Shown here: in pieces, positions 394-14,446 of the stretch
Position numbering within the stretch: position 1 is the first letter of the stretch
Layout of the letters: each line of letters begins with the position of its first letter
NCBI GenBank assembly: GCA_017553785.1
Contig: JAFZKD010000077.1
Coordinates: 1 to 40,257, forward strand
DNA from: Muribaculaceae bacterium
GTDB taxonomy: Bacteria; Bacteroidota; Bacteroidia; Bacteroidales; Muribaculaceae
DNA: 40,257 nt
Direction: 5' to 3'
Notes under the pieces: model-generated
What the model was told of the DNA's origin: nothing
What the model saw: the letters and a program-made list of their open reading frames with translations, nothing else
Databases searched by the model: none
Program-made: the position numbers and the translations under genes

Positions 394-845
394 CGGTATA
401 TCGGGTATTTGTCCAGGACATCATCGATATACGGCTGAGGGTCGATGTGCAGATAAAGGCAAACAGCTTCCACGAACTCGAATATGCCGTGGCATACACG
501 ATACACGCTGCCGTAGGTCTCTACAAGTTGCTGCCATGCTTTTTGGCTCTCGCTCTGCCTGCCTGCACTCGTCCCCTTGCGCTTGGGAGTCTTCATCTCG
601 ATGCAAAGGCTCGCCTTGCCTCCGAATGGATACAACAATATCAGGTCAGATATTCCACTGACGGCACCCTCATACTTCATCACCGCTCCAGTCCTCTTAT
701 CACGCCTCCCGCCGTTGGGTATGGCGAAAAGCAGATAAGCGACTTTAGCGAAGGTATGGCGAAACCAGCACACACAAACGTGCTGTATCTGGCTCTCGCT
801 GCTGGTGCGCTCAATCTGTAGTATTTCCTCTCGCGTCATTGTCAT
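390..845 (-). CDS. VRR-NUC domain nuclease (PD-(D/E)XK superfamily)
   Basis: 151 residues, close to the size of stand-alone phage VRR-NUC proteins. An early acidic residue (E17) is followed by AIPNGG (41-46), GAVSGISDLILLYP (60-73) with D67, the catalytic E-x-K at E83-K85 in CIEMKTPKRKG, and the S-x-x-Q-KAW helix near 98-105. This is the complete VRR-NUC core. The family cuts branched or structured DNA, so a role in processing replication or recombination intermediates is likely. It starts 7 bases after the SNF2 helicase gene and its TGA overlaps the next ATG, so the three are probably co-translated. Helicase plus VRR-NUC is a usual phage pair. Confidence 0.85.
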   Translation of the reverse strand: MTMTREEILQIERTSSESQIQHVCVCWFRHTFAKVAYLLFAIPNGGRRDKRTGAVMKYEGAVSGISDLILLYPFGGKASLCIEMKTPKRKGTSAGRQSESQKAWQQLVETYGSVYRVCHGIFEFVEAVCLYLHIDPQPYIDDVLDKYPIYR

Positions 846-852
846 GTGATGA

Positions 853-2589: not shown

Positions 2590-3134
2590 GCGGGTACTGC
2601 CTCAGGTACTTCGGCGGTAGCCTGTGCCTCGGCAAACGGATCGTCGGCGTTGCCGTCGAAGTCGATTTCCTTCTGGACCACCGCCCACTTTTTCTCGACG
2701 ACGTAGAGTTTAGCCTCATACATCAAGGCATCCACGACATCGCGCAGATCCTCGCAACGCTCATAGCTTTCGGTGTCGATATTGAAACCAGTGAGGGGCG
2801 TATTGAGGTTTAACACCTTACTCGTTGAAAGTGTGCGCTTGCCGGTGATGACGCACTGGCGGTCATCGTCAAAACCTTTGACAGAAACACCAGTGACCGA
2901 AATGCGGTGCAGCAAGTCCTCGTTCTCGATGCTCTCAATGTCATTCCAGTCAATCATCGGGGCCTCCCTCTGCTCGGTCAGTTCGGCAAAATAGGGGATG
3001 AGCGCGTTAAGTCGCTCCTTGAAATCCTCATGGACTGGGTTCTTTCCTTTTAGGCTCACATCGTTGCCGTCATCGTCAACAAAGGCGACCTCAAGAGTGC
3101 CGCCATTGTTCAATTTTACTTTTGAAATCTTCAT
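2586..3134 (-). CDS. Uncharacterised phage early protein
   Basis: 182 residues, family not recognised. The N-terminus (MKISKVKLNNGGTLEV) looks like beta-strands, the centre is mixed, and the C-terminus is acidic and Ala/Pro-rich after DGNADDPFAEAQ. No catalytic motif, signal peptide or membrane segment is visible. It begins 6 bases after the preceding stop and its TGA overlaps the helicase ATG, so it is embedded in the recombination operon and may work with the helicase. Proteins of this size and position are common in Bacteroides phage early regions, but no function can be read from the sequence. Confidence 0.75.
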   Translation of the reverse strand: MKISKVKLNNGGTLEVAFVDDDGNDVSLKGKNPVHEDFKERLNALIPYFAELTEQREAPMIDWNDIESIENEDLLHRISVTGVSVKGFDDDRQCVITGKRTLSTSKVLNLNTPLTGFNIDTESYERCEDLRDVVDALMYEAKLYVVEKKWAVVQKEIDFDGNADDPFAEAQATAEVPEAVPA

Positions 3135-3140
3135 TTTTGT

Positions 3141-3620
3141 TTAGTCTTTAAAATCAATACATAACTGTACTCCGTGAGGCTCTCGGTAGTCTTGGTGACT
3201 CGCCAAATAAGCCGTACGGAGTTTCTCTCTGATAAGTTCACGCTCTTTCTTGCTGACGTTGTACTGGTCGGAGTCGTAGTTGACCTGTAACGCACGTTCA
3301 AGGCTTCCTTGGACGTACTTATCATCCATGAAGATTGAATATACAGAGTACATTCGATTGACATGCACGCGGTCACTCTCTTCCTCTGAAGTCTGCACGC
3401 GGCTATAGGCTACGTTGATGTAGCGTGACACACCATCGTAGCCGTCTTTGTTGTAGCGCGGGCCAGGATCGTCATTAAGGAAAATGACGGTTAACGCCTC
3501 ACGTTTGACAACCTTATTGAGCTTGGCCCACCCGTAGTACACTCTAAGACGCATGGGGCCTTTTGGCTTTGGCCATTGCTTTGCTTCAAGCAACTTCAAT
3601 TGGTCAGTGAGTAGGCTCAT
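3141..3620 (-). CDS. Uncharacterised phage early protein
   Basis: 159 residues, soluble, no recognised domain. It is rich in charged and aromatic residues, with a middle segment GVSRYINVAYSRVQTSEEESDR and a basic helix KKERELIREKLRTAYLASHQD near the C-terminus. The ATG overlaps the TGA of the 50-residue gene upstream, and the frame ends in TAA 6 bases before the next gene. Translation is probably coupled to its neighbours. A role in DNA metabolism is suggested only by position. Confidence 0.72.
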   Translation of the reverse strand: MSLLTDQLKLLEAKQWPKPKGPMRLRVYYGWAKLNKVVKREALTVIFLNDDPGPRYNKDGYDGVSRYINVAYSRVQTSEEESDRVHVNRMYSVYSIFMDDKYVQGSLERALQVNYDSDQYNVSKKERELIREKLRTAYLASHQDYREPHGVQLCIDFKD

Positions 3621-3769
3621 CGTTTGTTTTGGCTTGCAAGAAACCTCTTTACTCCAGCTTCAATATTTCTGCGGGTTTCTTCAGGAATCGCATTCTCGTA
3701 ATCCTCTTCAGTCCACATATCGTATGGCTTGAGGTTTACAACACTTCCGGAATTCCTTCTATTTTTCAT
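3617..3769 (-). CDS. Small uncharacterised phage protein (50 residues)
   Basis: The frame is open further upstream, but the ATG at 3769 lies one base beyond the TAA of the NinB-like gene and gives MKNRRNSGSVVNLKPYDMW as the N-terminus, which fits the packing of this operon better than the longer start inside that gene. The product has a basic N-terminus, an acidic centre (WTEEDYENAIPEETRRNIE) and a basic C-terminal helix. The stop TGA overlaps the next ATG. No family is recognised; a small DNA-binding or adaptor protein is possible. Confidence 0.6.
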   Translation of the reverse strand: MKNRRNSGSVVNLKPYDMWTEEDYENAIPEETRRNIEAGVKRFLASQNKR

Positions 3770-3770
3770 A

Positions 3771-4187
3771 TTAACGGTATCTGTAATGTTGCACAAACTC
3801 TTGGTAATACCTGTCAGCAGGCAGAGGCAGTGTAATGCCCCATTCAGTAGCGGCATCAGCCTGGACCTTATTCATAAAGTTGGACATCTGCACGGTGTTC
3901 ATTCCGCTTGTGCCACCGACAACAGTGTAACGCCTGCCGCCGAAAGCGGTCTCACGGGTGAGGAACTTGCAGCAATAATAATCGTGCCAGTCCTGTTTCT
4001 CGGTGCCTGTGTTTTCTTCCATGCACTTGAACCACATCCACATGAGAGCGTTCTGGCTTACTGTTCGCGGCTCGGTCTTGCGCTTGATGCTGACAACATA
4101 GACACCGTTACGGAGCTGTGAGCACAGGAAGTCGAATGACTTGTCCATGCTCACTTGCCCGTCACGTTTAGTTAGTGTCGCTTCCAT
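3771..4187 (-). CDS. NinB-like recombination protein
   Basis: 138 residues, the usual length of lambda NinB-type proteins. The conserved pattern is visible: RTVSQNALMWMW (SQN-x-x-x-W motif) near 42-53, W-H-x-x-x-C-x-x-K-F-L near 68-76, and GGTSGMNTVQMSNFMNKVQ in the C-terminal half, followed by an x-x-x-GI-x-LP segment. Lambda NinB (Orf) binds single-stranded DNA and SSB and can replace RecFOR. SSB is encoded directly upstream with an ATGA overlap, which fits this role. Sequence identity to lambda is low, so the family call rests on the motif spacing. Confidence 0.75.
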   Translation of the reverse strand: MEATLTKRDGQVSMDKSFDFLCSQLRNGVYVVSIKRKTEPRTVSQNALMWMWFKCMEENTGTEKQDWHDYYCCKFLTRETAFGGRRYTVVGGTSGMNTVQMSNFMNKVQADAATEWGITLPLPADRYYQEFVQHYRYR

Positions 4188-4708
4188 CAGTGCCTGCCGA
4201 ATGGAAGGTCGTTGGCGCTGGGACCGCCATATTGCTGTTGCGGCTGATATGGCTGCTGCCCTGGCATCGGCGCGGGTTGCTGCTGGTACTGCGGCTGTGG
4301 CTGGTACTGCGGTTGCGCTACTGGCTGCTGTTGGACTTGCTGGTAGGGCTGTTGGTATGCCTGCTGCTGTTGCGCTTGAGGCTGTCCCAATAGTTCCATA
4401 TCGTCAACGACGACCTCAGTCTGATAGCGTTTAATGCCATCGCGTCCCTCCCATTGGCGTGTGGTCAGCTTGCCAATGATGAGGAGTTTCGTGCCTTTGC
4501 GCACATAACGCTCACAAATCTCTGCAAGACCTCGCCATGCAACGATGTTGTGCCACTCGGTGCGTTCAGGCACCTGCGTCCCGTCCTGCTTGGTATATGC
4601 CCTGTCGGTAGTGGCCAGCGTGAATGACGCTACCTTCACGCCTTGCGCGTCTCTAATCTCTGGATCCTTGCCGACATTGCCGAGCAAGAAAACTTTGTTA
4701 ACACTCAT
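4187..4708 (-). CDS. ssb: Single-stranded DNA-binding protein
   Basis: 173 residues. The OB fold covers about 1-112: start MSVNKVFLLGNVGKDPEIR, the core RTEWHNIVAWRGLAEICERYV and KGTKLLIIGKLTTRQW. A Gln/Pro/Tyr-rich linker follows to about 162. Cellular SSBs end in an exposed acidic DDDLPF-type tip that recruits partner enzymes; here DLPF is followed by three more residues (GRH) and the acidic run before it is reduced to S-A-N-D. The protein lies between the exonuclease and NinB genes with overlaps on both sides. It is probably a phage SSB acting with the ERF annealing system, perhaps with altered host-partner contacts. Confidence 0.95.
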   Translation of the reverse strand: MSVNKVFLLGNVGKDPEIRDAQGVKVASFTLATTDRAYTKQDGTQVPERTEWHNIVAWRGLAEICERYVRKGTKLLIIGKLTTRQWEGRDGIKRYQTEVVVDDMELLGQPQAQQQQAYQQPYQQVQQQPVAQPQYQPQPQYQQQPAPMPGQQPYQPQQQYGGPSANDLPFGRH

Positions 4709-5766
4709 TTGTCTTTCAATTTAATCGTTAAACTTCCTGCACGGCGACTCTCTGACGAGTATTCGCTATAGAGGTCGGGGTGGTCTTCTTTGAATTTCTT
4801 ACTATTGAATGATGTAACGATGCTGTTCTTTGAAAGTGTGACGCTGAAAGCATCACAGTTAAAGGACTTGATGCCGTTCTCAATCATCTTGGCCTTGAGC
4901 TCTTTTTTGAAAGCCTCCATCGCCTCCTCGATATACTTCGCCTGCCTCAGCGTGTGCGCAATCATATCGATTGTCTGCTGGGCGACGATGCCGTTATCTT
5001 GCTTCACTGCAGGCAGGTTGTTTCCTTGCATGATTTTGAGCATGTCAGCATCGCCCGTCCACTCATATTGCCAACTTACGCCATTGTACTCAATGACAGT
5101 GTTGTTAAGGAGTGCCTCGACGAAATCGTCAGGCTGTCGCTCAATGATCCAGAACGCTCCATCGGAATGACGTAGCCAGTTGGCAGCAAGTCCCTCAACC
5201 TTTAATCCCGTCTGTTTCTCGAACAGATAGGCATAGATTGACAACTGCCATGAGAGATATAGTTTCAGTCCATCGACTCCGCCAGGGTAATAATCAAGGT
5301 TGTTGGTCTTTGTGTCAACCAGCCAGATGCCCTGCGTCACTATCGCGCGCCATACGTTATCGATGTTGGACGCAATTTGGCTGTTGTCGCTGACGGTGTA
5401 CTCATTGGCAATAGGCTCGAACCCCTCGCGGTGTTTGATGTATGTATCAAGTTCCTGCGACACGTCAAAGGGACCGAACACCTGCACTCCGTGGTTCTCG
5501 GTCTGGTACTCGACTTCGGGATGCTTGGTCTGCTTGATGCCGATTTCATCGTAGAGTTCAATTGACTTGTGCACGGCACTGCCGTATGCTCCGGCGCGTG
5601 GTATGGCAACTTGTCTTACAAAGTCATTCGCGCCAGGGTAAACGCCGAGTTTGAGTATCGCATGGATGAGTCCAGTGACACCACTCAGGCGCTTACCCTC
5701 CAGCCAGTAGCCGTGAGGGTCTTCCTCAAAGACTACTGGCGATTTGGGTAATTCAATCTTGCTCAT
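4705..5766 (-). CDS. PD-(D/E)XK exonuclease, RecB/Cas4-like (partner of ERF recombinase)
   Basis: The ATG at 5766 overlaps the ERF stop and gives 353 residues; a longer start would run into the ERF gene. RecB-type nuclease motifs: GSAVHKSIE with H66, D136 in NIDNVWRA, D151-x-K153 in WLVDTKTN, and Q174-x-x-x-Y178 in SWQLSIYAY. This is the complete active-site set of phage alkaline-exonuclease-like and Cas4-like enzymes. Such an enzyme resects DNA ends so that the annealing protein can load, forming a two-component recombinase with the ERF protein directly upstream, with SSB downstream. The C-terminal third (about 260-353) is a helical extension without a clear domain. Confidence 0.85.
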   Translation of the reverse strand: MSKIELPKSPVVFEEDPHGYWLEGKRLSGVTGLIHAILKLGVYPGANDFVRQVAIPRAGAYGSAVHKSIELYDEIGIKQTKHPEVEYQTENHGVQVFGPFDVSQELDTYIKHREGFEPIANEYTVSDNSQIASNIDNVWRAIVTQGIWLVDTKTNNLDYYPGGVDGLKLYLSWQLSIYAYLFEKQTGLKVEGLAANWLRHSDGAFWIIERQPDDFVEALLNNTVIEYNGVSWQYEWTGDADMLKIMQGNNLPAVKQDNGIVAQQTIDMIAHTLRQAKYIEEAMEAFKKELKAKMIENGIKSFNCDAFSVTLSKNSIVTSFNSKKFKEDHPDLYSEYSSESRRAGSLTIKLKDK

Positions 5767-6422
5767 GATTGCTGCAACTCGTTTGCCTTCTTGATGCAAG
5801 CCTCATAGAACTCAGTGCCCTTCTGGCACATGGCCGGGTACTCGGTTGAATACTTCTGCCATACGGCGGCGTATTCCTCGTTGGTCTTGGCTGCCTCAAG
5901 GTCGGCAAGTGCCTGTTTCAGCACATCACCCTTGAAAGCGACGGCGGTGGCACCGCTTGACTTCTTTGATGATGCACGCTTGGCAGGTTCCTTGAATGTG
6001 GCCTCGTTGCCGCAGGCCGCATTGGCATCGTCGTCAGTATCGGCCACAATGCCGAGGATGGCGCAGTAGGTGTAGCGTTTGAGGTAGGTAATCGCAGAAC
6101 CCAGTGCCTGATAGTCGGCAGGCGCTTTGATTTCAATCTCGCTACGGAACCATTGGCCGCTCTTGTGTGCCAGTATGGTTACAAGAGTGCTATTGACAAC
6201 GACTTGGGTAACGGCGAGGCCGCATTTCTTCATCGCGGGAACAGCCGCCTTGACGCACGTTGACAGGTCGGCATACTTGAAGGTGTACGTCCCGCCAGTG
6301 CGGGTCTTGACACTCACCTCCTTGCTTAACTCGGGTTGTTTCAACTCGGACTGGAACTCCGAGAGCGCGGCTGCAATCTGGTCGATTTCAGCACTCATGA
6401 ACATTACTTGTTTTTCTTCCAT
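5763..6422 (-). CDS. ERF-family single-strand annealing protein
   Basis: 219 residues. The ERF signature is clear: TGGTYTFKYADLSTCVKAAVP with the K-Y-A-D-L core in the N-terminal half and YQALGSAITYLKRYTYCAILGI followed by the D-T-D-D-DAN acidic patch. The C-terminal part after about 145 is a Lys/Ser linker and a short helical domain typical of P22 Erf relatives. Erf proteins form rings that anneal complementary single strands. Here the order ERF, exonuclease, SSB, NinB is a complete annealing module. Alternative internal Met codons exist at positions 7 and 9; 6422 is the first in frame. Confidence 0.93.
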   Translation of the reverse strand: MEEKQVMFMSAEIDQIAAALSEFQSELKQPELSKEVSVKTRTGGTYTFKYADLSTCVKAAVPAMKKCGLAVTQVVVNSTLVTILAHKSGQWFRSEIEIKAPADYQALGSAITYLKRYTYCAILGIVADTDDDANAACGNEATFKEPAKRASSKKSSGATAVAFKGDVLKQALADLEAAKTNEEYAAVWQKYSTEYPAMCQKGTEFYEACIKKANELQQS

Positions 6423-6522
6423 GTTCAGTTGGTTTAATTGGTTTGACTTATGAATTAACTCACTGTAAAGTTAGTCAGTTTTGGCGATATACGGGCAACG
6501 CAAATGCCGCCATTTTAGCGCC

Positions 6523-6765
6523 TTAACTCTCGTTGACATTTTCCCCGAAACGCTCAATGCACTGGTCAATAACCTCGATTATCGACTCTTTGAATTTCTT
6601 CAGGTCTTGGGCGTGGACGAAGATGCGCTGGCGTTTGCCTTTGCTCCCAGCCGTGGGTACTTCGACGATCTGCAGGTAGGGGTCGCCCTTCACGTCCTCA
6701 CGGGCATCGAAATGGTAACATCGCGTCCCGGCGAACTGCTTCTTTGAAAATAATACGTTTTCCAT
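6523..6765 (-). CDS. PUR-domain (DUF3276-like) nucleic-acid-binding protein
   Basis: 80 residues from the ATG at 6765; the frame is open further upstream, but that extension would run through the tRNA-Met gene and is not coding. The pattern LFSKKQFAGTRCYHFDARED, then LQIVEV, then a basic loop, then RIFVHAQDLKKFKESIIEVID matches the single PUR fold of the Bacteroidetes DUF3276 family (strand-rich half, then an amphipathic helix). Family members bind single-stranded DNA or RNA. It is the first protein gene before the ERF module, so it could assist annealing or replication, or bind the RNAs encoded just upstream; the latter is speculation. It ends in TAA with a 100-base gap to the ERF ATG. Confidence 0.7.
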   Translation of the reverse strand: MENVLFSKKQFAGTRCYHFDAREDVKGDPYLQIVEVPTAGSKGKRQRIFVHAQDLKKFKESIIEVIDQCIERFGENVNES

Positions 6766-6791
6766 TGTGATGATGAATTGGTGATGATGAG

Positions 6792-6864
6792 TGGCGGGGG
6801 TGGGACTCGAACCCACGACCTCATGGTTATGAGCCATGCGAGCTGCCTTCTGCTCTACCCCGCA
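6792..6864 (-). tRNA. tRNA-Met (CAU)
   Basis: A full cloverleaf can be drawn: acceptor TGCGGGG/CCCCGCC with only the 1-72 pair open, U8 A9, D-stem GAGC/GCTC, anticodon stem CATGG/CCATG with loop CTCATAA, variable AGGTC, T-stem GTGGG/CCCAC with loop TTCGAGT, discriminator A. CCA is not encoded. It lacks the three G-C pairs of an initiator anticodon stem, so it is an elongator Met or possibly a CAU-isoleucine tRNA. Confidence 0.9.
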
Positions 6865-6870
6865 GTGTGT

Positions 6871-7047
6871 GACCATTCGGGCCTCGCGGATGGAATGGCC
6901 GGAAGTGTAAGTAGTGAAAAAAATTGCATTATTAGTAGTTTATAAGTTGAGTGCCCTACACGGGCCGTGTGATGAGATCCGGCGCCATCGCTGGCACCGG
7001 AGAAACCCGTAAAACAATGTAATCATAAACAGCCGTGCCTCGCGGCA
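6871..7047 (-). other. Gene-free stretch with short hairpins, three capped by GCGA tetraloops
   Basis: No coding frame is convincing between the tRNA-Met and the amber tRNA. Hairpins found: 6871-6900 (eight-pair outer stem, one G-U, with CC-GCGA-GG inside on the minus strand), 6958-6970 (palindrome ACACGGGCCGTGT), 6979-7000 (nine pairs, one G-U, loop GCGA on the minus strand) and 7036-7047 (TGCC-GCGA-GGCA on the minus strand). GCGA is a GNRA tetraloop only when the minus strand is transcribed, the direction of the flanking tRNAs and genes. This suggests structured RNA or tRNA precursor processing elements. Between 7048 and 7129 nothing is visible. Confidence 0.5.
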
Positions 7048-7129
7048 TGAGCTGAAAACGAACTAATAACCTCTAATACCATTAACATAAACCTTAAAAC
7101 TAATACCAATGAAAACAAAACGTGAATTG

Positions 7130-7201
7130 TGGTCGGGACAGGAGTCGAACCTGCGATTGCCGCATTAGATTGCGGAGTTCATCCGTCGGAACTTCCCAAC
7201 C
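7130..7201 (-). tRNA. tRNA-like gene with amber anticodon (CUA), putative suppressor tRNA
   Basis: Acceptor GGTTGGG/CCCGACC (one T-G pair), discriminator A, D-stem GTTC/GAAC with a loop containing GG, T-stem GCAGG/CCTGT with loop TTCGACT, variable CAATC. The anticodon stem CCGCA/TGCGG closes a six-base loop ATCTAA. Taking the T at loop position 2 as U33 gives anticodon CUA followed by A37. Odd points are the six-base instead of seven-base loop and A instead of U at position 8. It could read UAG in phage transcripts, or be a decayed tRNA. The amino acid is not readable; it is not a tRNA-Pyl, since the D-loop is normal. Confidence 0.65.
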
Positions 7202-7382
7202 ATAACCGCCATTGCTTCACAGCGACGACGGTGTTCTATTATGTCTTATGCGAAAAAACAGAAAGCCTTCAGCCAGTATCAGCCAGGTGGACCGCTTAGG
7301 GTGTAGGCAGCACCCATCATTACGGAGCGTACTCCCTTCGACTTAACAGAAAGCCATGAAAAAATCGTACTTTTATTCGCTT
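7202..7382. other. Spacer with an 11-base direct repeat
   Basis: No coding frame is supported. The word AACAGAAAGCC occurs at 7257-7267 and 7345-7355. Between the copies is a minus-strand stem GGGTG/CACCC with a seven-base loop CTGCCTA, which resembles an anticodon arm (GCC) but has no matching acceptor or T-arm. It could be a tRNA remnant. Confidence 0.35.
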
Positions 7383-7490
7383 GCGGGACTCGTGGAGTTG
7401 AACCACATGGACTTGCCGCTTTTCAAGAAACCAAACATTTAACACACATGTTTAACTTTGATTATTTCCAAGTCCACACCCGTAGTCCAG
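7383..7490 (-). ncRNA. tRNA-like element: acceptor and T-arm around a long hairpin
   Basis: Read on the minus strand, CTGGACT (7490-7484) pairs with AGTCCCG (7390-7384) with one mismatch, and a T-arm TGTGG/CCACG with loop TTCAACT directly precedes the 3' strand. In place of the D and anticodon arms there is a perfect eight-pair stem TGGACTTG/CAAGTCCA closing about 54 bases, with further pairing inside (AATCAAA/TTTGGTT and an inner TTAAACA hairpin). The layout (acceptor, long stem, T-arm) recalls the tRNA-like domain of tmRNA, but no tag frame is present and the element is only about 108 bases. It could also be a degenerate tRNA. Confidence 0.4.
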
Positions 7491-7495
7491 ATAAA

Positions 7496-7536
7496 GGCCA
7501 CCAGTATGTAACAATACCAGTGGCCACTCCTTTTTT
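7496..7536 (+). terminator. Hairpin followed by a T-run on the plus strand
   Basis: GGCCAC (7496-7501) pairs with GTGGCC (7520-7525), GTAT pairs with ATAC inside across a CA/CA internal loop, and six T residues follow at 7531-7536. The form is that of an intrinsic terminator for plus-strand transcription, although no plus-strand gene lies upstream; it may instead insulate or shape the minus-strand RNA. Confidence 0.45.
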
Positions 7537-7561
7537 ATTAACTTTTAAATTATGGATTTAT

Positions 7562-7610
7562 GAAAAAGCCCTTCCCGGTGCCAGGTGTTGAGGGCCCCAA
7601 CTCGTGGGGC
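7562..7610 (-). terminator. GC-rich hairpins, possible minus-strand terminator
   Basis: GCCCCA/TGGGGC (7594-7610, loop five) and GCCCT/AGGGC (7568-7595) overlap and are mutually exclusive. On the minus strand the second is followed by TTTTTC. It would end transcription from the small membrane-protein gene upstream before the tRNA-like elements, or act as a switch between two folds. Confidence 0.35.
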
Positions 7611-7660
7611 GCAAGTTAGTTTGTTTTGAAAGTGTATTAATCGCCCTCCCGGGTTTAGTG

Positions 7661-7710
7661 GGCCAGTGGCGGGACTTGCACCCGTCGTGCCCCTACGGAC
7701 AACACTGGCC
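7661..7710 (-). ncRNA. Minimal tRNA-like fold (50 bases)
   Basis: Perfect eight-pair stem GGCCAGTG/CACTGGCC (7703-7710 with 7661-7668) encloses just two hairpins: TGTCC/GGGCA with loop GTAG, and CGGG/CCCG with the T-loop-like TGCAAGT. This is an acceptor stem plus a T-arm and one further short arm, with no anticodon arm. The TGCAAGT loop word returns at 8614-8622 and, as TGCAAAC, in the tRNA-Gly T-loop. It may be a tRNA decayed to its 'top half' or a deliberate mimic. Confidence 0.4.
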
Positions 7711-7723
7711 GGATGACGCGGGG

Positions 7724-7957
7724 TCAGACCTCCATGTCACCCTCATCATTGAACACCACCAACTCCTTCAGGAGCCCGGCAGCGTCCCAACGCTCGGACA
7801 ATCGCCAGCAGCCGTAGGCCAAGGCGACGCCGAGTAACTTGGTCAAAATGAACATGCCGAAATCTTCGCAGTCGCACGCGATGAGCACGAAGGCTATAAC
7901 GGCAAGGATGGTCAGCGCGACAATGCGCCAGTTGAAAAGGATTGCGATGTACTTCAT
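7724..7957 (-). CDS. Small membrane protein (77 residues)
   Basis: One long hydrophobic segment follows the N-terminus (about 10-27, RIVALTILAVIAFVLIA), then CDCED, then a second hydrophobic segment (about 33-50) and an acidic C-terminal tail ending DEGDMEV. There is no signal peptidase site. Family not recognised. It sits in the early-operon direction 30 bases downstream of the HTH gene stop. Small two-TM phage proteins can be holins or exclusion proteins, but nothing here decides that. Confidence 0.6.
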   Translation of the reverse strand: MKYIAILFNWRIVALTILAVIAFVLIACDCEDFGMFILTKLLGVALAYGCWRLSERWDAAGLLKELVVFNDEGDMEV

Positions 7958-7987
7958 AGCTGTAAAATTACTATTGGTTTGACTCTG

Positions 7988-8221
7988 TTATTTCCTCATG
8001 TTGCGGCAGTGCCTCAGCACGTCGGCGGCATTGCAGTACCAGCGTCCGTTCTGCTGCCTCGACGTCTTGGTGGCTCTTATCTCGCCGCTCTCAACAAGCC
8101 TCACAAGACGTGCGCGGCCTCCGACGATCTGGGCGGCTGTGGTCTTGCAGAAGGACTTGTTCGCCATCGCAAGGAATATGTTTTCCAAGTGGATGGCCGG
8201 GGTATCTACTTGCTCCATCAT
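7988..8221 (-). CDS. Small excisionase-like helix-turn-helix protein
   Basis: 77 residues. From about residue 20, KSFCKTTAAQIVGGRARLVRLVESGEIRATKTS followed by NGRWYCNAADVLRH has the layout of the MerR/excisionase winged-helix family (HTH_17): short HTH, a recognition helix with R-x-x-x-L-x-x-x-G-x-I, and a W-Y strand of the wing. The start ATG overlaps the stop of the upstream 65-residue gene. It may be a phage excisionase or a regulator of the early operon. The wing sequence RQQNGRWYC is longer than in typical Xis proteins. Confidence 0.6.
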   Translation of the reverse strand: MMEQVDTPAIHLENIFLAMANKSFCKTTAAQIVGGRARLVRLVESGEIRATKTSRQQNGRWYCNAADVLRHCRNMRK

Positions 8222-8415
8222 GCAGTGCGAGTGACGGTGATGGTGCCAGCGGACACGTCCTGACGGACGGAAAGCTTCAGACCCTTTGCCCTCTCGGGTG
8301 CAAGGGTACGGTAGTATGTGGTGGAGAAACTCGCAAGCTGCTCGATGGGCAGCGTCACGAACTCATCAACACAAAGGGCGCGGAGTACCGCACTCAAAGA
8401 TTTAACTCGTTCCAT
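8218..8415 (-). CDS. Small uncharacterised phage protein (65 residues)
   Basis: MERVKSLSAVLRALCVDEFV starts a helical N-terminal half, and a strand-rich C-terminus (LKLSVRQDVSAGTITVTRTA) follows. There is no signal peptide. The stop TGA overlaps the start of the HTH gene, so the pair is translationally coupled. Function unknown; an accessory partner of the HTH protein is possible. Confidence 0.55.
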   Translation of the reverse strand: MERVKSLSAVLRALCVDEFVTLPIEQLASFSTTYYRTLAPERAKGLKLSVRQDVSAGTITVTRTA

Positions 8416-8442
8416 ATAAATATAGTGGTTGGTAAATAATTG

Positions 8443-8574
8443 GACTGGTGGCGGGACTCGAACCCGCGACTCTTCAAGGCGCAGCCTGAAAGTTTACTTA
8501 CATGCTCCTATAGCCGTGGTCTGACCAACTGACAACCTCCCTATCGCAGGAGAGGCTTAACGGCTACACCAGCC
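8443..8574 (-). ncRNA. tRNA-like element with expanded body (about 130 bases)
   Basis: The acceptor GCTGGTG (8573-8567) pairs with CACCAGT (8450-8444), and the T-arm GCGGG/CCCGC with loop TTCGAGT is perfect. TA follows the 5' acceptor strand as in real tRNAs. A D-type stem GCCG/CGGC then encloses about 44 bases, including a six-pair hairpin (CCTCTC/GGGAGG, loop CTGCGATA) and the word AGTTGG. A long variable-arm-like hairpin (core GGC-TGC-GCC) precedes the T-arm. No standard anticodon arm follows the D-stem; the CTGCGA loop in the hairpin would read anticodon GCG if it were one. Either a tRNA carrying an insertion or a tRNA mimic. Confidence 0.45.
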
Positions 8575-8605
8575 TATATGAAAGTAAATGAATAGTTAAT
8601 TACTC

Positions 8606-8846
8606 ATGGATGGACTTGCACGCCATCCATATCGTGGCCAGCGTTACGCTGGACTTGTCGCAGAGCCAACCCTCATCACAGCGCTCGGCCTTCCGGCTTA
8701 TTGCTTGGCGCTCACCCTTGCGGGGTCATCGCGGTACCTGCTACTCCGTTGGTTGCTCATCGCTGGCCTGCATCAGGTTGATGCGGTTCCAGCGGGTTTG
8801 CCATCATGTCAAGGGACTCTGCTTTGGCGCCCTTACGGGCTTTTTT
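8606..8846. ncRNA. Hairpin-dense gene-free region, candidate structured RNA
   Basis: Stems: ATGGATGG/CCATCCAT (8606-8630), CCAGCG/CGCTGG (8638-8652), GCC-TTCC-GGC (8688-8697; loop GGAA on the minus strand), ACCC/GGGT (8714-8726), GCATCA/TGATGC (8770-8784) and GCCC-TTAC-GGGC (8829-8840; loop GTAA on the minus strand). The last is followed on the plus strand by TTTTTT (8841-8846), a classic terminator. GNRA loops favour minus-strand RNA; the terminator favours plus. Overlapping plus-strand frames look like random shadows. No known riboswitch, tmRNA or intron core was recognised. Confidence 0.45.
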
Positions 8847-8847
8847 G

Positions 8848-8921
8848 AGCCGCTTATCGGGTTTGCACCGACGACCTCTCACGGGCATGTGAGCGCTCTC
8901 TCGTGGCTGAGCTAAAGCGGC
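8848..8921 (-). tRNA. tRNA-Gly (GCC) with a six-base anticodon loop
   Basis: Acceptor GCCGCTT/AAGCGGC, U8 A9, D-stem GCTC/GAGC with a ten-base loop lacking GG, anticodon stem CTCAC/GTGAG closing ATGCCC, variable AGGTC, T-stem GTCGG/CCGAT (one G-U) with loop TGCAAAC, discriminator T. The glycine identity set (G1-C72, C2-G71, U73, C35, C36) is complete. The loop has six bases instead of seven, as in the amber tRNA nearby; breaking the closing pair would give eight. Confidence 0.7.
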
Positions 8922-8950
8922 TATTTGGAATGGTTTGTTGACTTACGGCG

Positions 8951-9232
8951 TTACTTTGAGAGCTGATAGAGAAGGTTGTCGATGTCAAGTTTTCCATTGC
9001 TGTCGGCAACCAGGGCAGCGAAGTAGTCGCCATCGCTGATGCTGTACTTCTCCTTGAGGATCTTCAGCGCACCCTTGAGGATTTCCACCTTGCGGTACTC
9101 CTTGCAGTTGGAGTCGCGCTGATACTCGATTTGCTTCTCCAGTTCCTTGATGCGGTCCTGCGCTGCGGTGAGCTCGTCCATTTCCTGAGTCTCGTTCTGT
9201 CCCTCGACGGGGTTTGTCTTTTCTTCGTTCAT
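8951..9232 (-). CDS. Coiled-coil phage early protein (93 residues)
   Basis: First gene behind the early promoter, with a leader of about 70 bases. The N-terminal 18 residues are polar (MNEEKTNPVEGQNETQ); about 19-60 form a coiled coil with heptads in LTAAQDRIKELEKQIEYQR and KVEILKGALKILKEKY; the C-terminus ISDGDYFAALVADSNGK resembles a short folded cap. No enzymatic motif. Being the first early product suggests regulation or host takeover, which is inference from position only. Confidence 0.65.
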   Translation of the reverse strand: MNEEKTNPVEGQNETQEMDELTAAQDRIKELEKQIEYQRDSNCKEYRKVEILKGALKILKEKYSISDGDYFAALVADSNGKLDIDNLLYQLSK

Positions 9233-9276
9233 AGTGGTAATTTTTTTGAGTTATACTTTTGTCGTTTCAAACAAAT

Positions 9277-9291
9277 GCACTAAATTTGTGC
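9277..9291. promoter_or_regulatory. 15-base imperfect palindrome in the early leader
   Basis: GCACTAAATTTGTGC has one mismatched pair. It lies just downstream of the predicted early transcription start, so it could be a further operator or a stem in the leader RNA. It differs from the three ATTT-centred operators. Confidence 0.4.
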
Positions 9292-9310
9292 GTTAGTTTG
9301 TTTGTGTTTG

Positions 9311-9343
9311 CAAAGATAAATCCATTTGGATTAATAGACCAAA
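9311..9343 (-). promoter_or_regulatory. Early-operon promoter (Bacteroidetes -7/-33 type)
   Basis: On the minus strand the -7 box is TATCTTTG (9318-9311), an exact match to TAnnTTTG, and the -33 box TTTG (9343-9340) lies 21 bases upstream. The operator at 9319-9332 sits in the spacer, so a bound repressor would block the polymerase. Confidence 0.75.
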
Positions 9344-9403
9344 CATTTTAGAGAAATTATTAATCTATTTGGATTTTTTTAATATTAGTAAACATTTGTT
9401 TAC
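9319..9403. promoter_or_regulatory. Three related phage operators
   Basis: AATCCATTTGGATT (9319-9332), AATCTATTTGGATT (9362-9375) and GTAAACATTTGTTTAC (9388-9403) share inverted arms around an ATTT centre. The first two start 43 bases apart, about four helical turns. The first lies inside the early promoter; the third overlaps the region where the repressor gene must start transcription. The arrangement resembles a lambda-type switch, with the repressor encoded directly to the right. Confidence 0.7.
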
Positions 9404-9436
9404 TTTTTGATTTATGACAAATAGTTTGTTTTGAAA

Positions 9437-9793
9437 ATGGAAATACGAGAGAGAATTTCAGACTTCATTGTCAGCCAAAACCTAAGCGTGAGGGCGTTTG
9501 GCAACGTGTGTGGCATACATCAAGCCACATTAGACAAGCAATTAAAGGGACTACGCGATGTCAGCCTTGAAACGGTAATGAAGATTATTCACACTTTCCC
9601 AAACGTGTCAGCTGAATGGTTGCTTAGAGGCGAGTCGCCAATCTATCGCTCGGAGATTTCAGCCCAGTCCAGTGATCGCATCAACAAACTCATCGCTACC
9701 ATTGGAGAGATGCAGTCTATTGTAGAGGAGAAACAACATACAGTTGACGCACTCCAGGCCGAGAATGACAAACTCAAAAAGCAAATCAAATAG
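9437..9793 (+). CDS. XRE-family phage repressor-like protein
   Basis: 118 residues from the ATG at 9437; a TTG two codons earlier is a less likely start. Residues 1-65 form an XRE helix-turn-helix: RISDFIVSQNLSVRAFGNVCGIHQATLDKQLKG with the recognition helix at IHQATLDKQL, then VSAEWLLRGESPIY as seen in Bacteroides phage repressors. Residues about 76-118 are a coiled coil (SSDRINKLIATIGEM to LKKQIK), probably for dimerisation. No S24 peptidase domain is present, so induction by self-cleavage is unlikely. The gene is divergent from the early operon and borders its operators. It ends in TAG, unlike any early gene. Confidence 0.85.
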   Translation: MEIRERISDFIVSQNLSVRAFGNVCGIHQATLDKQLKGLRDVSLETVMKIIHTFPNVSAEWLLRGESPIYRSEISAQSSDRINKLIATIGEMQSIVEEKQHTVDALQAENDKLKKQIK

Positions 9794-9795
9794 AC

Positions 9796-10800
9796 ATGGC
9801 AAAGAAGAGTTTTTTAGGGCAGCTTGCAAAGGGGTTTGTCAGATCCGCCGTTAATCAAGTTGGACGTGACGGTGGCCGCGTCATCAGTAACCAGATATAT
9901 GGTGATGCACACAGCACACCAATTAGAAACGCCGGCGGTAATCAACAGCAGCACTCTGAACAAGTACCGCCAATCCCTAAAAGGATATGTGACTTTTTCT
10001 CAATAGATATTCACAACCTCTCCATTTATACAAATGGTAGGTTAGGACAAACGGACATCGCCTTAAACAATGACTTAGGCTTATTCAGTGTGGCTGAAAT
10101 AATCGCTTTTGATGGTGGATATTTCAATGTGAGTTTCAAATCACCTTTCCGCCAAATTACACCGCAACTCGCTGACTTTATCAATCATTGCGCTTCGGCT
10201 TGTGGTTTTGATGACAACGGTAAGGGGGTGATAGTGGCAGGTGATTTTAATGACATGAATAGGGGCGCATTTAGTAGAGTTTATCATAATGTAACACAAG
10301 GCGACTATAGCATCATGATTTATGGGATGATGGACGGTGTAACAATTACGATGCTCAATATACCTCAAGGACTCGTTCAATTTGGTGTTGCGAACTATTC
10401 ACCATCTCAATTAGTGCAAGTTCCTCAAGGTACTCAGGTTGATACGCCGTCATTCTGGAATTATGTCGGATGGTTTTTGTTGCTCGCTGGCACTTGTGGC
10501 ATTGGTGGACTCATCATGGCTATCAGAGGCTATTATATCACTAAAAAGCCAACAGTAGATTGTTACACTATGGTGTCACACGACATCACTAAGACCGATA
10601 TGCGGTACAGGAAAGGATATAAAGTTGTAGGTCAGTACCAGACGAAACAAAAAACTGAAATACCTGCCGACTCGTTGCCTTCATATATGGTAGAGCAACA
10701 AAAACAGTACGGCAAAATATATATGATTATTGGTATAATCGTCATTGTCGTTAACATTGTGTTTGCGATACTGGCTAAATACATTGCGCCCACGCAATAA
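9796..10800 (+). CDS. Two-TM membrane protein co-transcribed with the repressor
   Basis: 334 residues, starting 2 bases after the repressor stop. The N-terminus (KKSFLGQLAKGFVRSAVNQVGRDGG) is a basic amphipathic segment, and a mixed soluble domain covers about 60-215. TM1 is about 222-246 (WNYVGWFLLLAGTCGIGGLI) and TM2 about 305-328 (IYMIIGIIVIVVNIVFAI). A soluble loop between them is rich in Tyr and Lys. No named family is recognised. Co-expression with a repressor suggests a lysogenic function such as superinfection exclusion; that is inference. It is the last gene that looks phage-derived before the chromosome. Confidence 0.65.
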   Translation: MAKKSFLGQLAKGFVRSAVNQVGRDGGRVISNQIYGDAHSTPIRNAGGNQQQHSEQVPPIPKRICDFFSIDIHNLSIYTNGRLGQTDIALNNDLGLFSVAEIIAFDGGYFNVSFKSPFRQITPQLADFINHCASACGFDDNGKGVIVAGDFNDMNRGAFSRVYHNVTQGDYSIMIYGMMDGVTITMLNIPQGLVQFGVANYSPSQLVQVPQGTQVDTPSFWNYVGWFLLLAGTCGIGGLIMAIRGYYITKKPTVDCYTMVSHDITKTDMRYRKGYKVVGQYQTKQKTEIPADSLPSYMVEQQKQYGKIYMIIGIIVIVVNIVFAILAKYIAPTQ

Positions 10801-10924
10801 TTACCGAATTATTGTCCCTCCGATTTCTCGAAACCGCCGAAACACCCATATTTTCAAGGCGTAGCAGCGATAATACCACAAATTTTTCCTAAATTTGCAT
10901 TTTCAACCTTAATATTACCACACT

Positions 10925-12319
10925 ATGATGGAAACCATCAATGTCTTTTTTGAGAACCTGAGCGGCTACCTTTGGGGGTGGCCCATGATCATATTGCTGT
11001 TAGGAACCCATATTTTCCTGACCTTCAGGCTGGGCATCCCGCAACGCAAATTATTGACGGCCATACGGCTGTCTGTGAGCAAGGACAAGGGTTCCACGGG
11101 CGACGTGTCACAATTCGGCGCATTGGCTACAGCTCTTGCAGCGACCATCGGAACAGGTAACATTGTGGGAGTGGCTACGGCGGTCGCCTTGGGCGGCCCT
11201 GGAGCAGTCATGTGGTGCTGGCTATCGGGCGTGTTCGGAATCGCTACCAAGTACAGCGAAGGTCTGCTCGCCATCAAGTACCGTGTCAAAGCCGATGACG
11301 GCCGCATGCTGGGAGGCCCCATGTATGCGCTGGAACGTGGACTGGGATGGAAATGGCTTGCAGTCCTGTTTGCCGTGTTCACCGCGCTGGCATCGTTCGG
11401 CATCGGCAATACGGTGCAGGCCAATGCCATCTCGACAATAGCCAATGAATCTTACGGCATTCCCGCTTGGGTGACGGGAGCCGGCGTTTGCCTGCTAACG
11501 GCGCTGGTACTGCTCGGCGGCATCAAGAGCATTGCCCGCGTGTGCGGCGCATTGGTTCCCTTCATGGCTTTCTTTTACGTGCTAGGCTGCATCTACATCC
11601 TGATCGTTAACGGGCAGTACGTCTGGCCCGCTATCAAACTCATATGTGAATCGGCATTCACTCCACAAGCCGCTGGAGGAGGGTTTGTGGGAACTACCGT
11701 GATTATCGCGGCACGCATGGGTATCGCCCGCGGCTTGTTCAGCAACGAGTCGGGTCTGGGTTCCGCGCCCATAGTTGCCGCTGCCGCCCAAACGCGTAAC
11801 CCCGTGCGACAGGCGCTAGTGTCATCGACAGGCACATTCTGGGACACTGTAGTCATCTGTGCCTTTACCGGCCTAGTCATTGTCAGCTCCATCATCGCCT
11901 ACCCCGACATCAGCAGCACCGATGGCGCAGCCCTGACCAAGGCTGCCTTCTCCAAGATTCCTTACGTTGGCACACCACTGCTGACTTTCGGCCTATTGAC
12001 CTTTGCCTTCACAACAATCCTGGGTTGGTGCTACTACGGCGAACGCGCGGTCGAGTATCTGAAGGGCAAGCGCTGGATGCTCGCCTACCGCATCCTGTTC
12101 GTTGCCATGGTGTTTGTGGGCAGCATCATCAGTCTTGACGTGGTATGGAATGCAGCCGACTGCATGAACGCCCTCATGGCGATCCCTAACCTTGTCGCAC
12201 TGCTGCTGTTGAGTGGCGTCATCGCCCGCGAGACCAAACACTACCTCTATGGCGGCCGTCTTGACCACCATGCCCCCATGGACAAAGAGGAGCCTCTTCA
12301 GGACACTAAGAGTCTTTAG
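10925..12319 (+). CDS. Sodium:alanine symporter family protein (AGCS)
   Basis: 464 residues with about 10-11 hydrophobic segments. Family signatures: ALAATIGTGNIVGVATAV (about 70-90), EGLLAIKYRVK (about 112-122), ARGLFSNESGLGSAPIV and QTRNPVRQALVS. AGCS transporters take up alanine or glycine with Na+. The C-terminal tail HHAPMDKEEPLQDTKSL is short and cytoplasmic. A TAAATTTG -7 box lies at 10890-10897, though no good -33 box is visible. Two in-frame ATGs open the gene; the first is used. Nothing links it to the phage genes on its left, so the element boundary probably lies between 10800 and 10925. Confidence 0.92.
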   Translation: MMETINVFFENLSGYLWGWPMIILLLGTHIFLTFRLGIPQRKLLTAIRLSVSKDKGSTGDVSQFGALATALAATIGTGNIVGVATAVALGGPGAVMWCWLSGVFGIATKYSEGLLAIKYRVKADDGRMLGGPMYALERGLGWKWLAVLFAVFTALASFGIGNTVQANAISTIANESYGIPAWVTGAGVCLLTALVLLGGIKSIARVCGALVPFMAFFYVLGCIYILIVNGQYVWPAIKLICESAFTPQAAGGGFVGTTVIIAARMGIARGLFSNESGLGSAPIVAAAAQTRNPVRQALVSSTGTFWDTVVICAFTGLVIVSSIIAYPDISSTDGAALTKAAFSKIPYVGTPLLTFGLLTFAFTTILGWCYYGERAVEYLKGKRWMLAYRILFVAMVFVGSIISLDVVWNAADCMNALMAIPNLVALLLLSGVIARETKHYLYGGRLDHHAPMDKEEPLQDTKSL

Positions 12320-12429
12320 ATCATCTATAGCTCATCTATAGCGACTTTAACCACTATAGCCGCTATAAGTATAACCGCCTCATTTCCAGTTAATAACCGC
12401 CAAGAAGAGAATATTTTCCCTGATATTTC
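12320..12429. other. Short palindromic words after the symporter
   Basis: The direct repeat TCATCTATAG occurs twice in tandem (one base apart) right after the stop, followed by the palindrome TATAGCCGCTATA. There is no T-run, so these are not clear terminators. No gene is visible here. Confidence 0.4.
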
Positions 12430-12459
12430 TTGTCAGTTCGAGAAAAAGCAGTACTTTTG
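12430..12459 (+). promoter_or_regulatory. SRP RNA promoter
   Basis: -33 box TTG at 12430-12432, a 19-base spacer, and -7 box TACTTTTG at 12452-12459, a good Bacteroidetes promoter a few bases before the RNA start. Confidence 0.75.
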
Positions 12460-12461
12460 CA

Positions 12462-12568
12462 GTCGGGTAAGTCCTACACGGCCAGCTCCCTCCCAATCCC
12501 CCAGGCCTTGACCGGAGCAAGGGTAACGAGGTTGTAGCGGCGCGCTGTAGCTCACTTGCCCTTTTTTT
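12462..12568 (+). ncRNA. ffs: Signal recognition particle 4.5S-type RNA
   Basis: The ends pair (GGGTAAGT at 12465-12472 with ACTTGCCC at 12554-12561) and a T-run follows at 12562-12568. The Ffh-binding segment is recognisable as CAGG, ten bases, AGCA. In the usual bacterial form those ten bases close a GGAA tetraloop; here they read CCTTGACCGG, which leaves only two pairs and a six-base loop. Length, position and flanks fit SRP RNA; the apical loop is divergent. Confidence 0.8.
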
Positions 12569-12619
12569 GTACCCCTACCCCAACCTTAGAATATCCCAAA
12601 CGCAAAACGCGGTGCTGCA

Positions 12620-12651
12620 TTTGTTTTTTTGCAAGATTATATTTATATTTG
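12620..12651 (+). promoter_or_regulatory. Promoter of the secreted dockerin protein gene
   Basis: -33 TTTG at 12620-12623, a 20-base spacer, -7 TATATTTG at 12644-12651. This is a full consensus promoter giving a leader of about 28 bases before the ATG at 12686. Confidence 0.8.
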
Positions 12652-12685
12652 CAAAAAATAATATTCTCACTAAATTTTTATTCTT

Positions 12686-14446
12686 ATGAAATCATCCGTT
12701 TTTAAAAGACTTTCGTTAGCGCTAGTCGCTGTGATGGTGGTCGCCACCGCCCAAGCTGACATCTATTTCAAAATCAATGACATTCAGCTGAGAGAAAACG
12801 ATCTCGGTACCGAGATTATCGTACCTGTCTGGGCAAAATGCACGACACAGACTGATATTTGGGATATTAATCTCACTTTTCCTGAAGGGTTGACACCCAT
12901 CGAGGTTACCAAATCTTATGGCATGGAAATGGGTTTCTATAATTCAAATGGCCAATTTGATGTATATGAAGCACAACTGTTGACGAATGAAGACTATACC
13001 CATATGATTGGCTGTACATTGGGCTCTTTAGATTATTACAAAACACAGAATGATGAAGGCGAGACGGTCTACGAGCCTTGTGGATCATTAAGATGGGAAG
13101 TTTACGGCTGGAGTGATTACTACGAACAACTTTTATTAATAAAGTTTTATGTTGACCCTAGCTTCACTGGAGGAGAAATACAGATAACAGCCAGCTCAAG
13201 TTGCGGTTACAATGCCCGCTTTGGATCATTTTATTTCTCGCAAGACACGGCTATAGATCCATATCAGGCTGACATCAATGGTGACGGTGTGATCAACATT
13301 GATGATGCCACTTGCCTGTTAAACCACCTGATTGGCTTAGATTCCAATATTAGTGGTGGGGATGTTCACCACGACGGAAATATTGATATTCTGGACTATG
13401 AGGAAATGAAGGATTATCTCATATTCGGAGAATGGTATACAGGACATCGGTTTTACACAACTCAGACTAATACAAGTGTAGAGGTGTATTACCCACCTGT
13501 CAATGAACCTACCGAAGCTTCATTCTACATTAACGACCGGGAACTTACAGTCGATGATCTGGGAACCGAAATCATTATTCCTGTCGGCGCCCACTTCGGT
13601 AACTATATCAGTTCTTGGGATGTAGAATTCATTTTCCCGGAAGGATTGACTCCTGTCTATGCAACCAGGGGCAGCGACATGACCATGAATTTCTATGATG
13701 ACGAAGGTCAAGAGACAACAAAAGTCGCCAACTTGATGTATAACAATGCGTACACTCACTTTGTTTCTATGCCTACTTATATGGGATACCAGGCCCCAGA
13801 GATCGAAGGCGACCTTTACGAGCCTTATGGCACGATCAAATGGGATGCTGGAGATTATGATGAGATGTTCCTGATCCACTGTGAGGTCTCACCTTATTTT
13901 ACGGGCGGGAGTATTGAGGTTATCACCAATGCGTCAAGCGGTTATGACACACGCAACGACTTGATGGTTTTCGAGCCGATCACCAACGAGGTCTATATTG
14001 AAGAGTATGTCTATTGCCCTGGTGACATAAATAGCGATGGTCAGATTAGTATATCTGATGTAACAGAATTTGCTTACTATCTGATTGATCCAGCCTCATT
14101 ATCGGATTACATAAACATTCAAAGCGCAGACGCAGATCGTAATGGTGTATTAAATATTGCAGACCTCGATGGTTTATGTGATTATTTGTTGAATGGACAA
14201 TGGTATGCAGGATATGCGCTCAGTCAAGGTCAAACCGATGCCACAATTACAGTTTATTTTCCCGATTATACTGGCGATGTGAATGGTGATGGACAAATCA
14301 CCATCAGCGATGTGACGTCACTCATCGACATGCTCTTGACCATGGAATATATTGAATACAATGAGTTTATCGATGTGAATGGCGACGGCTATATCAGCAT
14401 TGCCGACGTGACAGCCCTCATCGACAAGCTGCTCAGCCAGCAATAA
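12686..14446 (+). CDS. Secreted protein with two cohesin-like beta-sandwich domains and three dockerin modules
   Basis: 586 residues with a signal peptide (about 1-24, ending AQA). Two related domains, about 26-190 and 276-440, share the frame I-N-D-x-x-L-x-x-x-DLGTEII-x-PV and W-D-x-x-x-x-FPEGLTP, typical of cohesin-like extracellular beta-sandwiches. Three dockerin-type pairs of Ca loops occur: ADINGDGVINIDDAT and partner (about 193-250), GDINSDGQISISDVT and partner (about 445-505), and GDVNGDGQITISDVT with VNGDGYISIADVT at the end (about 529-586). Cohesin-like and dockerin modules in one chain could let molecules associate. No catalytic domain is seen. Confidence 0.8.
   Translation: MKSSVFKRLSLALVAVMVVATAQADIYFKINDIQLRENDLGTEIIVPVWAKCTTQTDIWDINLTFPEGLTPIEVTKSYGMEMGFYNSNGQFDVYEAQLLTNEDYTHMIGCTLGSLDYYKTQNDEGETVYEPCGSLRWEVYGWSDYYEQLLLIKFYVDPSFTGGEIQITASSSCGYNARFGSFYFSQDTAIDPYQADINGDGVINIDDATCLLNHLIGLDSNISGGDVHHDGNIDILDYEEMKDYLIFGEWYTGHRFYTTQTNTSVEVYYPPVNEPTEASFYINDRELTVDDLGTEIIIPVGAHFGNYISSWDVEFIFPEGLTPVYATRGSDMTMNFYDDEGQETTKVANLMYNNAYTHFVSMPTYMGYQAPEIEGDLYEPYGTIKWDAGDYDEMFLIHCEVSPYFTGGSIEVITNASSGYDTRNDLMVFEPITNEVYIEEYVYCPGDINSDGQISISDVTEFAYYLIDPASLSDYINIQSADADRNGVLNIADLDGLCDYLLNGQWYAGYALSQGQTDATITVYFPDYTGDVNGDGQITISDVTSLIDMLLTMEYIEYNEFIDVNGDGYISIADVTALIDKLLSQQ

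Follow-up and report, generated by a model that had tools for sequence, protein, structure and literature searches.

As far as the sources cited here describe them, plant mitochondrial t-elements are tRNA-like sequences at gene ends where cleavage by RNase P and RNase Z defines the ends of RNAs, and they are CCA-tailed and not aminoacylated (PMC11658184). In the mitochondrial tRNA punctuation model, intergenic tRNAs mark the cuts in polycistronic RNA (PMC8601606). The RNase P substrates described from phages include T4 tRNA precursors, M3 RNA, and C4 antisense RNA (PMC11143913). Large structured RNAs of phages and prophages, such as ROOL and GOLLD, often lie close to tRNA islands, and their function is unknown (PMC12286853). 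Here we describe an array of six elements on the minus strand of a Bacteroidales prophage (positions 6792–8921), one of a group of phages of gut bacteria with such elements, comprising one ordinary tRNA and five tRNA-like folds, together with a structured RNA that we call X. The term "window" denotes the whole stretch of 40,257 nucleotides that was analyzed (contig C83 of a metagenome-assembled genome [MAG] with a completeness of 80%).

The elements are real, conserved, and under selection, and their anticodon arms are mostly abnormal. The explanation we favor, with a probability of roughly 0.6, is that they are tRNA-like processing marks, or "t-elements," in a phage early operon, where they would free X and mRNAs with short leaders.

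An array of tRNA-like elements on one strand

The original prediction described one normal tRNA and five elements with abnormal centers in this region, and ARAGORN, Rfam, and rule-based scans find all six within a few bases of where they had been placed (Table 1). ARAGORN reports a tRNA-Met at 6791–6864 and labels 7129–7201 and 8847–8921 as "tRNA-???" with anticodons of two letters, and the Rfam tRNA model matches only at 6792–6864 (60.8 bits) and 7130–7201 (37.1 bits). Six-base anticodon loops had been proposed at 7130–7201 and 8848–8921, and these are seen in E5 and E1. The claim that acceptor and T-arm are both perfect holds, with G-U pairs allowed, for E1, E2, and E5; it fails for E3, whose T stem has four of five pairs, and for E4, which has ∼5 acceptor pairs. 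The account of the 2.1-kb cluster overlooked the conserved structured RNA between E1 and E2 (8595–8845).

A strict rule that demands a 7-bp acceptor and a 5-bp T stem finds three elements on the minus strand of this region, none on the plus strand, none elsewhere in the window, and none in any of 1000 shuffles. A loose T-arm plus acceptor rule finds six on the minus strand and none on the plus strand at 6700–9000, whereas 300 dinucleotide shuffles give a mean of 0.27 and a maximum of 3. The loose rule is noisy, and yields three more elements on the minus strand and seven on the plus strand in the remainder of the 40-kb window.

Transfer-messenger RNA (tmRNA) was considered as an identity and rejected, since the window and its relatives give weak, sub-threshold matches alone. 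In the window, the tmRNA covariance model reaches 16.7 bits, below the cutoff of 47, and ARAGORN reports no tmRNA.

Table 1. Positions of the elements, of X, and of neighboring features in the window. ORF, open reading frame; HTH, helix–turn–helix; SRP, signal recognition particle.
Feature	Position	Strand	Description
E1	8847..8921	-	tRNA-like cloverleaf; 6-nt anticodon loop (ATGCCC); T loop TGCAA; abuts X
X	8595..8845	-	Conserved structured non-coding RNA, ~250 nt, flanked by E1 and E2
E2	8443..8574	-	tRNA-like, ~130 nt, inserted hairpin arm; ends ~27 nt before ATG of 65-aa ORF
E3	7661..7710	-	Minimal acceptor plus T-arm, 50 nt; full-size counterpart with same acceptor in L021 (by eye)
E4	7386..7490	-	Acceptor plus T-arm, long central hairpin
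E5	7129..7201	-	tRNA-like cloverleaf; 6-nt anticodon loop; counterpart in L014 has compensatory changes
M	6791..6864	-	Ordinary tRNA-Met (CAT); slot ahead of PUR ORF
Bacteroidales-type promoter	9311..9343	-	Consensus match (TTTG-N18..21-TAnnTTTG)
93-aa ORF	8951..9232	-	First gene downstream of promoter; no Pfam or PHROG match
65-aa ORF	8218..8415	-	Next after E2; comparable ORFs after E2 in relatives (by eye)
77-aa HTH_17-like ORF	7988..8221	-	phrog_18744; query for finding relatives
77-aa small ORF	7724..7957	-	Probably membrane (by eye)
Terminator-like hairpin	7496..7525	-	12 pairs, T-rich tail; immediately before E4
DUF3276/PUR-domain ORF	6523..6765	-	ATG ~26 nt past M acceptor
ERF recombinase	5763..6422	-	Synteny anchor gene
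Bacteroidales small SRP RNA	12458..12565		

A conserved structured RNA between E1 and E2

X was compared with Rfam 15 in region 6400–9300 of the window and in five relatives, and no match was obtained at E values up to 1; neither ROOL nor GOLLD gave a family match over X in this search. Assignment of X to a known RNA family was rejected on this basis. A DNA pattern taken from the 5′ part of X matched 65 viral and 35 genome stretches, and a profile search gave strong X matches in 17 and 8 of these, respectively. About ten further weak profile matches (17–19 bits, over the pattern) were left out of the count. All eight genome stretches with a strong match come from Bacteroidales MAGs (Prevotellaceae, Muribaculaceae, Porphyromonadaceae, and Candidatus Amulumruptor), and the MAG of the window carries a single copy.

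The comparisons below use 31 X loci, including that of the window, with 29 distinct sequences; L049 and L164 are truncated copies of L033 and L028. Locus L025 is close to L014, and L003 is the weakest match (46 bits). The sequences fall into a Prevotella type and a Muribaculaceae type. Consensus folds predicted on MAFFT alignments, with no shuffle control, contain 60 pairs for the Prevotella type (seven sequences), 17 of which have changes on both sides, and 49 pairs for the Muribaculaceae type (11 sequences), 15 with such changes. For one helix of X, automatic selection took the wrong partner in some rows, that of the window included, and its result was not used for these pair counts.

The slot directly before X

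An element ends immediately 5′ of X in 29 of the 30 X loci with enough flanking sequence. The scan located 26 of these elements, ARAGORN the tRNA-Ser of L005, and inspection by eye those of L053 and L166, the latter with an atypical T loop. No element was found in this slot of L003, and a contig end cuts the slot off in L044. In the Muribaculaceae type, 4–7 nt separate the acceptor end from the invariant AAAG motif of X in 18 of 19 loci (exactly 6 nt in 13), the exception being L007 with 19 nt. The corresponding distance is 20–25 nt in nine of nine Prevotella-type loci, where the gap holds a small hairpin. The AAAG motif is absent from L227.

The bodies of the elements in this slot are diverse. 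Their anticodon loops have 5, 6, 8, or 9 nt, apart from one 7-nt loop without U33; others have long centers, and L005 carries a true tRNA-Ser(GCT). In L173 and L185, bare acceptor/T minihelices of 41–42 nt with six of seven acceptor pairs stand ahead of X. Over 21 distinct stem sets, 248 of 252 acceptor/T-stem cells are paired, as compared with a maximum of 184 in 500 shuffles that ignore the relatedness of the sequences, and changes on both sides occur in all 12 acceptor/T-stem pairs.

About 100 nt upstream of E1, six loci (L053, L031, L162, L166, L173, and L185) share a set of GC-rich hairpins that look alike by eye. Such a set occurs in phages of the Muribaculaceae type and was not seen in the window.

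The slot after X and the spacing to start codons

An element was found by scan downstream of X in 18 of the 19 Muribaculaceae-type loci tested; the second of its elements was taken for L031. When 19 elements of this slot, two of them from L031, are aligned as cloverleaves, 93.7% of cells are paired (77.3% in shuffles). Fifteen of 21 pairs show changes on both sides (10.0 in shuffles), and the covariation score is 0.474 (0.195 in shuffles). Each of these three values lies above all 500 shuffles. Sliding the partners as a control leaves 34.5%–53.1% paired. Changes on both sides are present in all four helices (acceptor, D, anticodon, and T), of which the anticodon stem is the weakest (74.7% paired). 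Further pair types are not more numerous than in shuffles (121 of 500).

Anticodon loops across the elements scored range from 3 to 22 nt. The scoring covered 33 hand-picked rows, two of them without an arm, and the 7-nt loop with U33 that marks a functional tRNA appears in one of the 31 arms (L010). The tRNA-Met of the window and the tRNA-Ser of L005, which stand outside the 31, both have it. The extra arm of Prevotella-type E2 has a 5-bp outer helix that is kept despite base differences among the window, L014 (L025 being the same), L027, and L028; an automatic search found none in L002.

Start codons follow the elements at short distances. The first ATG lies 10–29 nt past the element in 17 of 18 cases of the automatic set for the E2 slot, and 19–29 nt past it in all 16 hand-chosen slots, which represent both types and include the window's E2 and M. 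The slot ahead of the PUR ORF is occupied by a real tRNA-Met in the window and by elements that lack a usable anticodon arm in L014, L002, L012, and L009 (by eye). Upstream of this ORF in L021, a terminator-like hairpin takes the place of the tRNA-like element (by eye). Thus, this slot can take a real tRNA in place of a tRNA-like element, and it can also do without either.

Relatives and gene order

Related loci were collected with two proteins of the operon. The ERF query yielded 15 viral loci and matched five of 150 genomes, including the window's own, two of them at E near 0.001. The HTH protein yielded 18 viral loci and an HTH alignment 33, on partly overlapping contigs; the protein matched two of 295 genomes of the class, again including the window's own. 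The relatives inspected by eye share one gene order: first ORF, E1, X, E2, 65-aa-like ORF, HTH ORF, further elements, PUR ORF, and ERF. In 19 relatives, the strict scan finds 42 elements on the operon strand and none on the opposite strand, with a shuffle expectation of 0.15. Three of the 19 have no element by this rule (L005, L027, and L035).

The strict rule gives no element in 18 more distant HTH loci (L230–L247), and ARAGORN none in the 14 that it scanned. However, L232 is the same contig as L035, and a looser scan shows probable elements there and in L040, so the strict rule misses some. L035 and L040 have their probable elements without a detected X. At the place of E4, L028 carries a tRNA-like element with an anticodon loop of ∼10 nt (by eye). 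The E4–E5 region aligned by MAFFT with five phages is too divergent for pair counting.

A search of the window region against named phages gave 247 records, and the 20 matches listed among them all cover the tRNA-Met stretch only. The E1–X–E2 piece of L011 gave 19 records, with every match over the E1 part, and that of the window has no match among plasmids. A distant HTH homolog occurs in three named phages; in the two of these regions that were inspected, no tRNA or non-coding RNA is annotated, and no element scan was made there. By eye, extra DNA, apparently small opposite-strand genes, lies within the array between X and E2 in L005 and L006 and nearby in L007 and L009, and the elements are undisturbed.

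Promoter and surroundings

Ten minus-strand ORFs were scanned between 853 and 9232, and several are phage genes (ERF, a RecE-like exonuclease, SSB, NinB/Orf, and an SNF2 helicase). The promoter upstream of the array is the sole minus-strand match to the Bacteroidales-type consensus in the window's first 26 kb, and it pairs with a divergent partner at 9258–9288 (plus). The whole window contains four consensus matches, as compared with 0.34 expected; the remaining two are at 12620 (plus) and 26284 (minus). Because this lone match lies upstream of the array on that strand, one promoter drives the leftward operon with all six elements as far as this consensus shows, and weaker or different promoters are possible. 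The region has four terminator-like sites, with 3.2 expected from shuffles, and the hairpin before E4 is weak on its own.

A repressor-like ORF and a 334-aa ORF lie divergent from the operon at 9431–10925 (plus). Since a host-like symporter gene begins at 10925 (by eye), an edge of the prophage may lie near 10.8–10.9 kb. Inspection by eye of the ORFs listed for 1–13000 revealed no integrase. Downstream of E5, at ∼7061–7127 on the minus strand, an AT-rich stretch carries the GGTATTAG motif twice, and ∼60 nt of it are identical in the window and L014 despite differing surroundings. This stretch is a possible protein-binding site or origin.

Discussion

What requires explanation is a set of elements whose structure, conservation, position, covariation, and interchangeability within a slot are established. 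The original prediction had judged random decay an improbable origin and had offered decoys, regulators, or processing signals as functions. Among these, processing fits best, because the elements stand immediately ahead of X or a short way upstream of start codons, because the same slot also accepts a real tRNA or a bare minihelix, and because the array has just one Bacteroidales-type promoter upstream. A single transcript would start at ∼9.3 kb. Host RNase P on the 5′ side, and RNase Z or another nuclease on the 3′ side, might recognize the acceptor/T-arm half and cut, which would release X from between E1 and E2 and give downstream mRNAs short, uniform leaders. An anticodon arm that is altered, lost, or enlarged would switch decoding off and keep the excised pieces out of translation, and the center would otherwise be free to vary. 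Full-length RNase Z-like proteins (256–290 bits) are encoded in 17 of 18 genomes of the same genus.

Like t-elements, these elements have a tRNA-like fold, and E1, E2, and M lie at the ends of mRNAs or stable RNAs. Exceptions to this placement are E3–E5, which have no ORF directly after them, L007, with no ATG in range, and L021, whose PUR ORF lacks an element. A point that speaks against processing by non-decoding marks is that ARAGORN labels elements of L003, L005, L029, L031, and L040 as ordinary tRNAs. By our own parse, the loops are 18 nt in L003 and 8 nt in L031, and L005 has a true tRNA. An extension in which X, released from the early transcript by the non-decoding mimics, works in trans during infection, while the mimics occupy RNase P, RNase Z, and the CCA enzyme, is rather doubtful.

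Excised tRNA-like RNAs could instead serve as decoys, with the acceptor/T half sequestering tRNA-targeting nucleases, toxins, or tRNA-handling enzymes of the host. The phage setting suits such decoys, as does retention of the top half with an altered decoding part. However, decoys do not predict the spacing to X or to start codons, and a bare 41- to 42-nt minihelix is enough in two phages, so this function seems unlikely. Decoys for anticodon nucleases in particular can be set aside, since neither the size nor the sequence of the loop is conserved. The regular distance to the ATG would also be expected if the elements were leaders that control translation or answer a tRNA-binding protein; the E. 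coli thrS operator is a tRNA-mimic leader of this kind. Yet E1 stands before a non-coding RNA rather than an ORF, the anticodon is not conserved, and the slots also hold real tRNAs of different kinds (Met and Ser), which makes control of this sort improbable.

X might also bind or cut the tRNA-like folds at its flanks as part of a single ribonucleoprotein or ribozyme module made up of X and the elements. X is highly structured and nearly always preceded by an element, but the additional elements of the window sit away from it, and L035 and L040 probably have elements without a detected X. We regard such a module as quite improbable. That the array is a once-ordinary phage tRNA cluster in decay is very hard to sustain. 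Some elements do score as tRNA in Rfam, and several are named by ARAGORN. Nevertheless, compensatory changes occur in all four stems, and gene order and stem pairing are kept across relatives. Random decay, meaning uncompensated loss of stem pairing, is rejected by the covariation in the E1 and E2 slots. The original prediction therefore stands on this point, and the retained outer helix of the E2 extra arm extends conservation to the central parts, as it had proposed to check.

If processing by these elements is correct, the array would be a natural form of tRNA punctuation in a bacterial virus, accompanied by a structured RNA outside all Rfam families. Retention of the tRNA top half with repeated loss of decoding would allow the minimal-substrate rules of tRNA-maturation enzymes to be tested in nature, and "degenerate tRNAs" in phage annotations may be functional. 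Within the literature that our search reached, which took in only some of the subscription papers and preprints, we found none that describes such elements in phages. To our knowledge, tRNA punctuation is otherwise known from mitochondria and one laboratory construct. Mitochondrial punctuation employs real decoding tRNAs, whereas the phage array consists mostly of mimics with abnormal anticodon arms. In the man-made archaeal construct, RNase P and tRNase Z free an RNA that is flanked by two tRNA-like elements, much as we propose for X, but the phage array is natural and conserved. The T4, M3, and C4 substrates share with the array the cutting of phage RNA by host RNase P, which is predicted here; as far as they are described in the source cited, they include no array of intergenic, non-decoding tRNA mimics (PMC11143913). 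Unlike ROOL and GOLLD as portrayed in the cited account, X is only ∼250 nt long, and it matches neither in Rfam 15 and is bracketed by tRNA-like elements (PMC12286853). The likeness to plant mitochondrial t-elements, within what their source relates, lies in tRNA-like sequences at gene ends that are cut, or in the phage are presumably cut, to set those ends; the differences are that the phage elements belong to bacterial DNA viruses, occur several to an operon, have an altered or lost anticodon arm, and bracket a dedicated non-coding RNA (PMC11658184).

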